NCBI RefSeq assembly: GCF_009753675.1
Contig: NZ_WQLV01000002.1
Span: forward strand, 558,001-622,000
Reading direction: 5' to 3'
From: Parasedimentitalea huanghaiensis
GTDB lineage: Bacteria > Pseudomonadota > Alphaproteobacteria > Rhodobacterales > Rhodobacteraceae
Length of the DNA stretch: 64,000 bases
The stretch's first letter is position 1. The number at the start of each line of letters is the position of its first letter. The translations under genes were made by a program, and so were the position numbers. The notes beneath the pieces were generated by a model. That model saw only the letters and a program-made list of their open reading frames with translations. It made no database searches and was not told the DNA's origin. Shown in pieces: positions 60,360 through 64,000 of the stretch.

Positions 60360-61838
60360 ATGTCATTCAGATCCATCATACTTGCGGCCAGTTCGGCCTT
60401 GGCGCTGACCGCAGGTGCAGCCGCCGCGAAAGACTCGATTATTGTAGCCATGCAGTTGGAGCCACCCCACTTGGACCCGACCAGTGCAGCAGCTGGCGCA
60501 ATTGACTCGGTGCTCTATTCCAATGTTTTCGAAGGTCTGACCCGGTTTATGGGCGATGGGGCTGTGGTGCCCGGACTGGCCGAAAGCTGGGAGATTTCCA
60601 GCGATGGGTTAACCTATACCTTCAAATTACATTCTGATGTCATGTTCCACGATGGTACTGCCATGGACAGTGAGGATGTAAAATTCAGCCTGGATCGCGC
60701 ACGCGCTGAAGACAGCACCAACGCACAAAAGGCACTGTTCGCAGGTATCACCGATGTTTCGGTTGTCGACCCGCAGACCGTCACGGTCACCTTGGCCGAG
60801 CCAAATGGCAACTTCCTTTTCAATCTGGCCTGGGGGGACGCGGTTATCGTCGCACCTGAGAGCATCGACGACATCAAAACCAATCCGGTTGGCACAGGAG
60901 CTTTCAAGTTTGCCAACTGGGTTCAGGGTGACAAAATTGAACTGGCCAAAAATGGCGACTACTGGGGCACCCCCGCAGTTCTAAACAGCGCAACTTTCAA
61001 ATTCATCAGCGATCCGACTGCGGCCTTTGCAGCTGTCATGGCCGAAGATGTCGACGTGTTCAGTGGTTTCCCTGCTCCAGAAAACCTGCCCCAGTTTGAA
61101 GCCGATCCCCGGTTTCAGGTTCTGGTCGGCTCGACCGAGGGTGAAACCATCCTGTCGACCAACAACCAGCAGCCCCCCTTTGATGATGTCCGCATCCGTC
61201 AAGCTGTGGCCCATGCTATCGACCGTCAGGCAATTATCGACGGCGCTATGTTTGGATATGGCACTCCAATCGGTAGCCACTTTGCGCCACACAACCCGGC
61301 CTATGTCGATCTGACCGGCAACTCTGCCTATGACCCAGCGAAGGCAAAGGCATTGCTGGCCGAAGCGGGTATGGCCGATGGGTTTGAAACCACACTGCAC
61401 TTGCCACCGCCCTCCTATGCGCGTCGCGGCGGAGAGATCATTGCGGCACAGCTGGCCCAAGTCGGTATCAAAGCTGAGATCATCAATGTGGAATGGGCCC
61501 AATGGCTGGAAACAGTATTCCGCGGCAAAGATTTTGGCCTGACCATTGTCAGTCACACTGAACCGATGGATATCAATATCTATGCCCGGCCCGACTACTA
61601 CTTTCAGTATGACAACAAGGGTTTCCAGGAGTTGATGACAGGCCTGAATGCCACCACTGATCCCGGCAAGCGGATTGACCTGATGCAGCAGGCGCAAACC
61701 ATCCTATCCGAAGATTACGTGAACGGATACTTGTTCCAACTTGCCCAACTGAGTGTGGCGAAAGCCGACGTTCAGGGGTTGTGGACCAATGCGCCCACTC
61801 AGGCCACAGACCTGACAGCTGTAAGCTGGGCCAAGTAA
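60360..61838 (+). CDS. ABC transporter substrate-binding protein, family 5 (peptide/nickel type)
   Basis: A 492-residue periplasmic binding protein. A signal peptide (MSFRSIILAASSALALTAGA, then AAAK) is followed by the SBP_bac_5 pattern: MQLEPPHLDPTSAAAGAI, VVPGLAESWEISSDGLTYTF, VMFHDGTAMDSEDVKFSLDR and NPVGTGAFKF. Cargo is probably a short peptide or similar compound. GGGGAG about eight bases upstream decides the start at 60360, not the upstream frame opening. A strong terminator follows, and the permease-like gene at the window edge is 2 kb away, beyond an inverted ECF41 operon. Confidence 0.93.
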   Translation: MSFRSIILAASSALALTAGAAAAKDSIIVAMQLEPPHLDPTSAAAGAIDSVLYSNVFEGLTRFMGDGAVVPGLAESWEISSDGLTYTFKLHSDVMFHDGTAMDSEDVKFSLDRARAEDSTNAQKALFAGITDVSVVDPQTVTVTLAEPNGNFLFNLAWGDAVIVAPESIDDIKTNPVGTGAFKFANWVQGDKIELAKNGDYWGTPAVLNSATFKFISDPTAAFAAVMAEDVDVFSGFPAPENLPQFEADPRFQVLVGSTEGETILSTNNQQPPFDDVRIRQAVAHAIDRQAIIDGAMFGYGTPIGSHFAPHNPAYVDLTGNSAYDPAKAKALLAEAGMADGFETTLHLPPPSYARRGGEIIAAQLAQVGIKAEIINVEWAQWLETVFRGKDFGLTIVSHTEPMDINIYARPDYYFQYDNKGFQELMTGLNATTDPGKRIDLMQQAQTILSEDYVNGYLFQLAQLSVAKADVQGLWTNAPTQATDLTAVSWAK

Positions 61839-61856
61839 TACCTTTAGAAGCTGTTC

Positions 61857-61880
61857 AAGGCCCCGGAAACGGGGCCTTTT
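61857..61880 (+). terminator. Intrinsic terminator after the binding-protein gene
   Basis: Arms AAGGCCCCG and CGGGGCCTT pair perfectly over a GAAA tetraloop (61857-61878), followed by TTTTC. Since the ECF41 sigma gene ends at 61880 on the other strand, it may serve both convergent genes. It should limit expression of any distal permease genes from the binding-protein promoter. Confidence 0.85.
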
Positions 61881-62758
61881 CAATTCAATGCAGCCAGTTT
61901 TTCGGGTGCGCGCATAAAGTACATCCACGCCACCTGTCCCTGCGCGTCGGGCAGCAATGTAATGATATCCTCGATCCTGTCGCCTACGAGATACATGAGA
62001 GCTGGAAGACTATTGGCAAAACAGGGGAAGATCCGCCCACCAGGTTGTCCCAACGTTTTGGCCGCAACTGACAACATGACCAGTCCGATTTCCTCTGGCC
62101 CAAGCAGCGGCCGACGAGCGGCGCGCACAGATGGGCCTCCGTCCGTTATCGCAACCGCATCCGCTGCCAGCAATTTGGTGACAGCATCAAAGTCTCCGTT
62201 AGAAGCCGCCGTAAAAAATTCCCCGATCAGAGTTGAGATTTGAACGTTGGACACATCAAATCGTGGCCCGCTGTTGTGAACACGTTTACGGGCGCGACTA
62301 ACCAACTGACGGCAGGCGACCTCGGACTTACCCAAGGTTCGAGCCAGATCAATATAGGCCACATCAAAAGCCTCGCGCAGGATAAACGCCGCCCGTTCTG
62401 TCGCATCCAACCGCTCCATTGCCCAAAGCAGCGCCAATCCACAGTCCTGAGCTTGAATAAAATTTGCTTCAACCGAATGCTCAGCTGTCACGACCAGTGG
62501 TTCGGGCAACCATGGACCGACATAGGTTTCCCGCCGCCGCTGTGCCACGCGCAAGGCATCTATGGCGATGCGAGTGGCCACTCGTGTTAGCCAGGCTTCG
62601 GGGTTCCTCACCGCATCCTGGTCTGTACCAGCCCACCGCAGCCAAGTGTCTTGTACAACATCTTCGGATGCCGCACGTTCACCTAACATACGATAACAAA
62701 TCGAAATGAGGCGTGGCCGATGTCGTTCGAACTCCCGAGCTGCCACATCACTACTCAT
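61880..62758 (-). CDS. RNA polymerase sigma factor, ECF41 (SigJ-like) with fused SnoaL-like domain
   Basis: A 292-residue ECF sigma factor. Region 2 lies at about residues 8-75 (RLISICYRMLGERAASEDVVQDTWLRW) and region 4 at about 108-160 (DATERAAFILREAFDVAYIDLARTL). The linker motif ETYVGPWLPEPLV is the ECF41 fingerprint. A SnoaL/NTF2-like C-terminal domain (about 170-290) replaces a separate anti-sigma factor; the family's usual DGGGK motif appears as DGGPS here, so regulation may differ. It is the last gene of a three-gene operon headed by an ECF41-type promoter and overlaps its upstream neighbour by eight bases. Confidence 0.92.
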   Translation of the reverse strand: MSSDVAAREFERHRPRLISICYRMLGERAASEDVVQDTWLRWAGTDQDAVRNPEAWLTRVATRIAIDALRVAQRRRETYVGPWLPEPLVVTAEHSVEANFIQAQDCGLALLWAMERLDATERAAFILREAFDVAYIDLARTLGKSEVACRQLVSRARKRVHNSGPRFDVSNVQISTLIGEFFTAASNGDFDAVTKLLAADAVAITDGGPSVRAARRPLLGPEEIGLVMLSVAAKTLGQPGGRIFPCFANSLPALMYLVGDRIEDIITLLPDAQGQVAWMYFMRAPEKLAALN

Positions 62759-63290
62759 TCAGAACCAGCTCCTCTTGCTCACCAAACCTTAGACGACTGC
62801 AGGTCGCTCCGTGCCCCAATGACTTTTTGAAAACAGGGTAGAACCGCCCCGATGCCGAAGCATAAGCAACCGCAACAAGCCCTTTGCGCCCAAACTTCTT
62901 TGTAATCTCTTGTGCCATTCGGTCAGTTTCTAAATCGCCAGCGATGGCAGACACGGCGAACCTATATCCCAGCCCCACATCCCCGGCCAGTTCGCTGTAC
63001 CCATCTGCACAGGACCGCAATTTTTCTGATGACACACCAGCATCGATCCACATGTCGATCACCAGCTGCGTACAGGGTCCACAATCCCCGTCCAATGTCG
63101 AGGCCAAGAGCGCACCTGCAATCACCTCATCAGCATTTTTCAAACCGCGATAGCCAATTACCGCCGGATACAAAGCCAGTCGCGCTCCGGCAGATCTAGA
63201 CACGTCAATCACATCTAACATGTAGGAAACATCATATTGGTACTTCCGACCAAAGGCACGCGTTGCGCGTTGCAGGAACCAGCGGATCAT
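62751..63290 (-). CDS. Carboxymuconolactone decarboxylase/AhpD-like protein of the ECF41 operon
   Basis: A 179-residue soluble protein. The CxxC motif in LDGDCGPCTQLVIDMWIDAG, preceded by a helical ADEVIAGALLAST segment, resembles the redox site of carboxymuconolactone decarboxylase/AhpD-like proteins, the kind of product commonly encoded with ECF41 sigma factors. The histidine usually found four residues after the second cysteine is not present (Val), so it is a divergent member. A peroxidase-like or redox role is inferred. It overlaps both neighbours (four and eight bases), indicating one translationally coupled operon. Confidence 0.68.
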   Translation of the reverse strand: MIRWFLQRATRAFGRKYQYDVSYMLDVIDVSRSAGARLALYPAVIGYRGLKNADEVIAGALLASTLDGDCGPCTQLVIDMWIDAGVSSEKLRSCADGYSELAGDVGLGYRFAVSAIAGDLETDRMAQEITKKFGRKGLVAVAYASASGRFYPVFKKSLGHGATCSRLRFGEQEELVLNE

Positions 63291-63673
63291 CGGTTCACCT
63301 CCTTATTACGGAGGCGCACAATCATAGTCACGGCCAACCACGCTGGGAGCTGAATCCCGATCAAGTTACTCAAGGCGATCATATCCATGGGACCGCCCCG
63401 CGCACCCCAGATCCAAAAATGAAACACAGCATGCATCACTGGCCAAGCAACCCCAAACACACATGCGGTTTGATCCTGTCGCAGAGCGCCCCAGATCAAT
63501 CCACTGCCCGATACCAAAAAAATCATAGCAATGTCGCGGACGAAATGCAGGTTGAATGGCCCCGTCATTCCCACTCCGGGGGTCAACTCGTACCAGAGTT
63601 CTGGTGTCAGCCACATCAACACCCCTAACCCCCCAAAATATGCCCCAATTACTAGCAGTACAGATCGCACCAT
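63287..63673 (-). CDS. Four-helix membrane protein, first gene of the ECF41 operon
   Basis: A 128-residue protein with four predicted membrane segments (VRSVLLVIGAYFGGLGVLMW; AMIFLVSGSGLIWGAL; VFGVAWPVMHAVFHFWIWGA; LIGIQLPAWLAVTMIV). The conserved-looking NLHFVRDIAMIF and HAVFHFW histidines recall small DoxX/DUF4345-like membrane proteins, but I cannot assign a family firmly. AAAAGGAGA lies close upstream of the ATG at 63673. A TGTCACA-N16-CGTC promoter about 25 bases upstream makes it the first gene transcribed by the ECF41 sigma factor encoded two genes later. Confidence 0.72.
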   Translation of the reverse strand: MVRSVLLVIGAYFGGLGVLMWLTPELWYELTPGVGMTGPFNLHFVRDIAMIFLVSGSGLIWGALRQDQTACVFGVAWPVMHAVFHFWIWGARGGPMDMIALSNLIGIQLPAWLAVTMIVRLRNKEVNR

Positions 63674-63697
63674 CAGATCTCTCCTTTTTGCCAGTTA

Positions 63698-63724
63698 GAC
63701 GAGGGAGAACCTGCTTCTGTGACA
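63698..63724 (-). promoter_or_regulatory. ECF41-type promoter (TGTCACA-N16-CGTC)
   Basis: On the minus strand TGTCACA (63724-63718) is followed after exactly 16 bases by CGTC (63701-63698). This is the bipartite -35/-10 motif I recall as reported for ECF41 targets. It predicts transcription starting about 7 bases further on, near 63690, leaving a leader of under 20 bases that just contains the ribosome-binding site of the first gene. Confidence 0.75.
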
Positions 63725-63868
63725 GCAAAGTCAAAAAAATGATAAAGGCGCGTATCACGCACCAAACATCCCTTAAACCGTTAACAATATACAGTTTTCA
63801 TAAGTGCCCTTACGTTTCTTCCTTCATAACTCTGGACGTTGGCAAAACCCGCTCCTAACGTGACTGTA

Positions 63869-64000
63869 ATGTTACGCTATTCCATCAAACGTCTCTTCTC
63901 CCTAATCCTCAGTCTGGCCGTTGCCTCACTGGTGATTTTCTTTGTCATCGAAATCGCGCCCGGCGATCCGGCTTCCTTTATGCTGGGTATCAACGCACAG
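63869..64000 (+). CDS. ABC transporter permease, peptide type (partial, N-terminus only)
   Basis: The last 132 bases encode 44 residues of an open frame that leaves the window: MLRYSIKRLFSLILSLAVAS followed by LVIFFVIEIAPGDPASFML. The first membrane helix and the APGDPA motif just after it are typical of DppB/OppB-type permeases of family 5 binding-protein systems. It most likely works with the binding protein at 60360-61838. An in-frame GTG at 63860 is an alternative start, and no strong ribosome-binding site is seen for either. Confidence 0.8.
   Translation, partial: MLRYSIKRLFSLILSLAVASLVIFFVIEIAPGDPASFMLGINAQ

Follow-up and report, generated by a model that had tools for sequence, protein, structure and literature searches.

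The described ECF41 systems with which the present locus can best be compared are those of R. sphaeroides and B. licheniformis, in which the ECF41 promoter motif has been mapped by experiment (Wecke 2012, PMC3426412), its consensus and spacing having been derived from 285 sequences and the transcription starts mapped in two bacteria. The mapped start of the R. sphaeroides promoter is a G that leaves a leader of 22/23 nt, while the ydfG promoter of B. licheniformis has TGTT as its -10 element. According to the sections of that paper considered here, both systems have an effector gene for a carboxymuconolactone decarboxylase (CMD) beside the sigma gene, no anti-sigma gene, a C-terminal extension of the sigma factor and a short leader, an arrangement also seen at the locus described below. 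The same sections name WLPEP as an ECF41 motif, ascribe three conserved motifs to the extension and call the signal of these systems unknown. Published truncations, also treated in a review, reveal an extension that holds the sigma factor back yet is required for its activity, and a review states that some ECF41 members protect against oxidative stress and others do not. Single ECF41 targets have been reported in R. sphaeroides and B. licheniformis (PMC3426412) and in S. meliloti (PMC6180224), where the same motif precedes the ECF41 operon SMb20029-rpoE9 (RpoE9). Wider ECF41 regulons exist nevertheless, since an Azospirillum ECF41 factor controlling motility is among the references of a review.

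Here we analyse a window of 64,000 nt (the whole stretch of DNA under study) from the marine bacterium Parasedimentitalea huanghaiensis, in which TGTCACA-N16-CGTC stands at 63724-63698 on the minus strand, 24 nt ahead of a three-gene operon whose last gene encodes an ECF41 sigma factor. The -35 element, TGTCACA (63718..63724), is kept in relatives, and the -10 element, CGTC (63698..63701), begins 16 nt past it, with the consensus and 16-nt spacing of the RSP_0606 promoter of R. sphaeroides and the ydfG promoter of B. licheniformis (PMC3426412). Judged by its letters, the site is an exact match to the published ECF41 promoter type, TGTCACA-N16(+/-1)-CGTC. A preliminary description of this DNA had placed both elements, exactly 16 nt apart, just upstream of the ECF41 operon, followed by a predicted short leader and a good ribosome-binding site, and all of this was found as described: the ATG of the first gene lies at 63673, 24 nt after CGTC, and AAGGAG occupies 63686-63681, 7 nt ahead of that ATG. 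If the start is placed as in the mapped R. sphaeroides promoter, transcription would begin at the G 7 nt past CGTC, giving a predicted leader of about 18 nt (63674..63691, minus strand) that contains the AAGGAG. The motif has no other match within the window, even with spacers of 15-17 permitted, and shuffled versions of the window (n=100) held a mean of 0.15 matches, 15 of the 100 having at least one.

The surroundings of the promoter were also inspected. A terminator-like hairpin lies directly upstream of it on the operon strand (63747-63763, minus strand) and may block read-through; such hairpins are not enriched in the window (4 matches vs 2.7 in shuffles). A sigma70-like promoter was considered as the source of basal operon expression and set aside, none having been found in 61800-63900. 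At the other end, the inverted repeat GGCCCCGGAAACGGGGCC (61859-61876) lies where the sigma gene and a gene for a peptide-binding protein converge, between their ends; it resembles a shared terminator and is missing from the terminator-scan list.

The first gene (63287..63673, minus strand) encodes a 128-aa predicted four-helix membrane protein, for which Pfam and NCBIfam returned no match at E 0.001. Its AlphaFold2 model (pLDDT 94.9) consists of four long helices, and N41, H43, H81 and H85 are invariant in 50 aligned sequences. No fold family is assigned to it: tetraspanins came first (Z 12.1) and NACHO/TMEM35A next (Z 9.9), values that helical bundles reach by chance, and Foldseek alone gave no match to the model under E 0.001. 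A second copy, 55% identical, is encoded elsewhere in the same genome (L053, C23:335857-336186).

The second gene (62751..63290, minus strand), which overlaps the first by 4 nt, encodes a 179-aa protein with a CGPC motif and, likewise, no match at E 0.001 in Pfam or NCBIfam. When its AlphaFold2 model (pLDDT 91.2) was submitted to VIA-align, AhpD-type structures filled the first 18 rows at Z 5.2-11.6 and the next, unrelated row had Z 3.2, to be read with the caution that helical bundles may reach Z values below about 13 by chance; the best row gave 3.7 Å over 169 residues. The titles of these 18 comprise AhpD, CMD, peroxidase-related and antioxidant proteins, the debrominase Bmp8 and proteins of unknown function, the last of which we take to be AhpD-type as well. 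Foldseek alone gave a best E of 0.36, with none below 0.001. Furthermore, hhalign places CGPC on the CxxC found in classical CMDs from other ECF41 operons (E 5.8e-6, probability 85%), and the Pfam CMD model matches 4 of 11 AhpD-like members (best E 0.0068), the window protein not being among them. On its predicted structure, the second gene product is taken as a divergent AhpD-like protein with the AhpD fold. Throughout the 79 readable AhpD-like sequences (L096 is cut short), which were retrieved with two patterns, one of them CGPC, the CxxC is CGPC in 77 and CGSC in 2, and the place of the following His is taken by V in 66 and I in 13, so that CxxCxxxH is absent. All 12 AhpD-like proteins reached via the sigma factor also carry CGPC. 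Among the other ECF41 loci, 16 of 19 have a classical CMD as judged by HMM, and all 16 carry CxxCxxxH. The third cysteine of the window protein, C164, is invariant in 72 aligned sequences.

The third gene (61880..62758, minus strand), with an 8-nt overlap with the second, encodes the 292-aa sigma factor. Its ECF41 identity is borne out by the Pfam domains sigma2 (PF04542, E 2.4e-15) and sigma4 (PF08281, E 7.2e-9), by the NCBIfam model PRK09636 of the SigJ subfamily, which is above its cut-off (TIGR02957, SigX4, falls below), and by WLPEP in the linker between sigma2 and sigma4. The fused SnoaL-like extension that had been proposed finds support in the family profile, which aligns to the SigJ structure 5xe7 over positions 3-287 of 292; alone, the window sigma factor matches Pfam SnoaL weakly and below cut-off (E 0.0084 and 0.039), and 33 of the 41 family members aligned show SnoaL_2 with E values up to 0.1. 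The operon was also said to contain no anti-sigma gene, and in agreement with this none of its three proteins has a recognised anti-sigma match in Pfam or NCBIfam, an unrecognised one being possible.

The extension carries DGGPS where DGGGK had been expected, together with APEKL. The substitution is real, yet an alignment reveals that it is not a lone change. In the clade of the window sigma factor (45 rows, tree support 100/98), DGGGK is kept in only 4 and 41 have no Gly at the fourth position, the commonest forms being DGGAK (15), DGGKK (8) and DGGRK (5), whereas DGGG is found in every one of the remaining 16 CGPC-type sigma factors and is part of DGGGK in 10. DGGPS itself is shared with Zongyanglinia marina (L054), whose sigma factor is 93% identical, and DGGPT occurs in L055. 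The APEKL of the window corresponds to an NPDKL-type motif, A replacing N in 5 of the 45 clade members. Since none of the 61 aligned CGPC-type sigma factors has lost WLPEP or DGG, we read DGGPS as the far end of a clade-wide retuning rather than as the sign of a broken domain, although the working of the extension could be altered; in one wider relative (L039) the motif is DSGGK. The label DGGGK derives from the preliminary description and from the alignments made here, a search for "DGGG" in the main text of PMC3426412 having given no match. A single origin of the CGPC-type ECF41 group was not taken as settled: the tree needs 3 label changes, and one origin stays possible.

Conservation across relatives was assessed in loci retrieved through the AhpD-like gene, for which 147 stretches matched the patterns, 138 were confirmed and 80 loci were kept. 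An ECF41 gene lies just downstream in 60 of the 80, and the membrane gene is also in front in 52 of these 60. Upstream regions of sufficient length were available for 59 ECF41-adjacent loci (in L096 a contig end interrupts the locus); the exact site with spacing 16 is present in 47 of them and a site with at most one mismatch in 58, counts which, these loci being kin to each other, are not independent tests. Mononucleotide shuffles of the same regions (n=200) gave a mean of 0.14 and a maximum of 2 for at most one mismatch at spacing 16. When spacings of 10-22 were compared, 16 returned the 47 exact matches, 13 returned one, and no other spacing returned any. By contrast, the 20 loci without an adjacent ECF41 gene hold no exact site, and only one has a site within one mismatch: GGTCACA-N16-CGTC ahead of the AhpD-like gene of Marinobacter xestospongiae (L106:3422-3448). 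The operon is present without a site, to within one mismatch, in L088, from the same record as L016.

A separate family survey of 394 genomes points the same way. It counted 31 ECF41-like loci (30 plus L009; one further full-length match, in G295, is outside the count), of which 28 hold the motif with at most one mismatch, spacers of 15-17, on either strand and anywhere in the locus, 23 of them as the exact motif at spacing 16; L016, L028 and L040 do not. As a positive control, the scan recovers the published R. sphaeroides site without a single differing letter (L024). In a five-sequence promoter alignment that includes two near-copies, both elements are invariant, as are 2 of the 16 spacer columns. 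Across species, the presence of the predicted promoter tracks that of an adjacent ECF41 gene.

Altogether, we consider it highly likely that the site is a real ECF41-dependent promoter driving one three-gene transcript, through which the sigma factor would raise its own level along with that of two effectors. By analogy with the described systems, the extension would restrain the sigma factor until a signal arrives; the signal would be sensed by the SnoaL-like extension, allowing the sigma factor to bind RNA polymerase and to read TGTCACA-N16-CGTC upstream of its own operon. A single transcript would then cover the three overlapping genes, for the membrane protein, the AhpD-like protein and the sigma factor, and sigma level and effectors would rise together, the latter probably acting in membrane thiol or metal redox chemistry. 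Promoter use, single transcript, feedback, signal and effector function are what we infer from sequence, and on that footing autoregulation appears well supported. The locus had been presented as a self-amplifying switch; positive feedback by itself, however, is no proof of a bistable one. The claim that the operon carries its own ECF41-type promoter stands as regards the site in front, but is too narrow in two respects: the sigma gene comes third, so that the membrane and AhpD-like genes would be driven too, and a second ECF41 factor may read the same promoter.

This second factor belongs to an operon that the scan of the whole genome (40 contigs, 4.86 Mb) also picks out. The scan gives 7 sites for the exact motif vs 3 for a reversed control pattern, so that by itself the motif is weak evidence, and it is position and conservation that carry the case. 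Two of the 7 sites stand at the head of ECF41 operons, and five fall inside open reading frames of 188-826 aa. A pattern shortened by the first base of the -35 element (GTCACA-N16-CGTC) matches 12 sites, the five extra ones all being inside frames of 348-987 aa, so that 10 of the 12 fall within frames of 188-987 aa and the remaining two are again the heads of the ECF41 operons. With one mismatch, 324 sites were found, below the 428 of the reversed control. The frame lists being mechanical, both operon sites are themselves crossed by frames of 100-153 aa, which we read as spurious because they overlap operon genes. The preliminary description had envisaged such a scan as a way to define the regulon; it does recover two ECF41 operons headed by TGTCACA-N16-CGTC, but with 10 of 12 sites inside frames and a one-mismatch count below control the motif alone cannot serve as the definition. 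As only the two ECF41 operon sites are outside long frames of other genes, we predict a core regulon made up of this operon and the second one, to which one-mismatch sites may add weak targets. The gene for the second membrane-protein copy was weighed as a further target and rejected, all sites within 260 nt upstream of it having at least 4 mismatches.

The same promoter core in front of two ECF41 operons means that the window promoter may answer to either sigma factor, and it might be read mainly by the second (C23:409727-410554), in which case there would be no simple self-loop. The gene of this factor (39% identity to the local one) is preceded by an exact TGTCACA-N16-CGTC and a classical CMD gene, and the spacers of the two operon types differ only modestly in composition, the cores being alike by construction because the sites were chosen by motif. 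Against it, 11 other genomes with the CGPC operon gave no second full-length ECF41 match among the candidates scored in a first look (at most 6 per genome), and 10 of the 11 nevertheless have the motif (L037 with a spacer of 15; L016 lacks it). The sigma type found locally must therefore be able to use the motif, and we regard control mainly by the second factor as unlikely. Autoregulation by the local sigma factor is thus retained, with crosstalk between the two ECF41 factors possible, and what results is a predicted core regulon of two ECF41 operons within one genome that lends itself to testing.

A different kind of doubt concerns the membrane protein, which could be a sensor or anti-sigma-type partner of the sigma factor. 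It is the product of the first gene in 52 of the 60 ECF41-containing loci, and its three invariant histidines are what a sensor might have. However, 12 of the 20 loci that have no adjacent ECF41 gene pair it with the AhpD-like gene, and 8 of the 60 that have one show no copy in front (one of these, L096, ends at a contig end), so that its tie to the AhpD-like protein is no weaker than its tie to ECF41; moreover, its predicted model is almost entirely helix, with no soluble domain. A further argument comes from the context of the ECF41-less loci. In twelve of the 20 (L105, L106, L107, L112, L113, L115, L123-L126, L129 and L132), which come from 11 gammaproteobacterial records and one Rhodobiaceae MAG, the AhpD-like gene is preceded by an MFS-type gene and a divergent LysR-type gene. 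The genes were grouped by BLAST clusters; Pfam bore out the MFS assignment in 5 of the 12 loci and the LysR assignment in the single case tested. The membrane gene follows the AhpD-like gene in 10 of these 12 loci, and a SCO1/SenC-type gene follows in 6 (Pfam confirmed 4 of 4 tested). From this arrangement the AhpD-like protein and the membrane protein would seem to make up a redox or metal-chemistry unit that can do without ECF41, which argues against the membrane protein being an anti-sigma factor only, and we hold such a role to be very unlikely. In L126 (2250-4070) the MFS and AhpD-like regions share a single open frame, which may be a natural fusion. That the motif is a chance match without function, as the genome-wide counts taken alone would allow (7 exact sites vs 3 in the reversed control; 324 vs 428 with one mismatch), is hardly credible given the position of the site, its exact spacing and its conservation across species.

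Returning to the self-controlled three-gene operon, its two effectors could belong to a portable membrane redox module, composed of the CGPC AhpD-like disulfide protein and the four-helix protein with three His, that would have come under two unrelated kinds of control, ECF41 self-control and LysR with an MFS gene, and would handle thiol or copper stress, the extension of the clade having been retuned to match (DGGGK to mostly DGG[A/K/R]K). We advance this reading tentatively, as one that may well prove wrong. The ECF41-linked module is found mostly in alphaproteobacteria, plus some gamma-, beta- and deltaproteobacterial records, and the split between classes is unclean, the gammaproteobacterial L101, L104, L118, L121 and L133 having ECF41. 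The linkage to LysR, MFS and SCO1 provides leads for the signal, namely thiol or copper stress, or an exported compound.

Compared with the known systems, the self-promoted wiring is already familiar in the ECF41 family, and what sets the present case apart is its cargo, the altered motif of its clade and a second operon with a shared core. Where R. sphaeroides and B. licheniformis have a CMD with a CxxC as partner, the window has a four-helix membrane protein together with an AhpD-like protein whose CGPC lacks the His behind it; the DGG motif of its sigma factor differs as well. The portion of PMC6180224 that deals with SMb20029-rpoE9 of S. meliloti does not mention a membrane gene, and a search of titles and abstract openings in the literature met with no description of an ECF41 operon that includes this membrane protein or CGPC. 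M. tuberculosis SigJ (PDB 5xe7), likened to the window sigma factor by sequence match and molecule name, agrees with the family profile over nearly its full length, whereas a single-sequence search aligns it only with residues 6-230 of the window protein. The nearest comparison is furnished by the genome itself, since its second ECF41 operon (C23:409187-410554) has the same -35 element, spacing and -10 element, its site (C23:409187-409213) being followed by an AhpD/CMD-type gene and then the sigma gene. It differs in that its classical CMD carries CAYCIHMH, in that DGGGK is kept and in that no membrane gene stands between promoter and CMD. The promoter described here agrees with the published ECF41 rule and is not an exception to it, and what it adds is a clade in which the same rule is joined to a different cargo.
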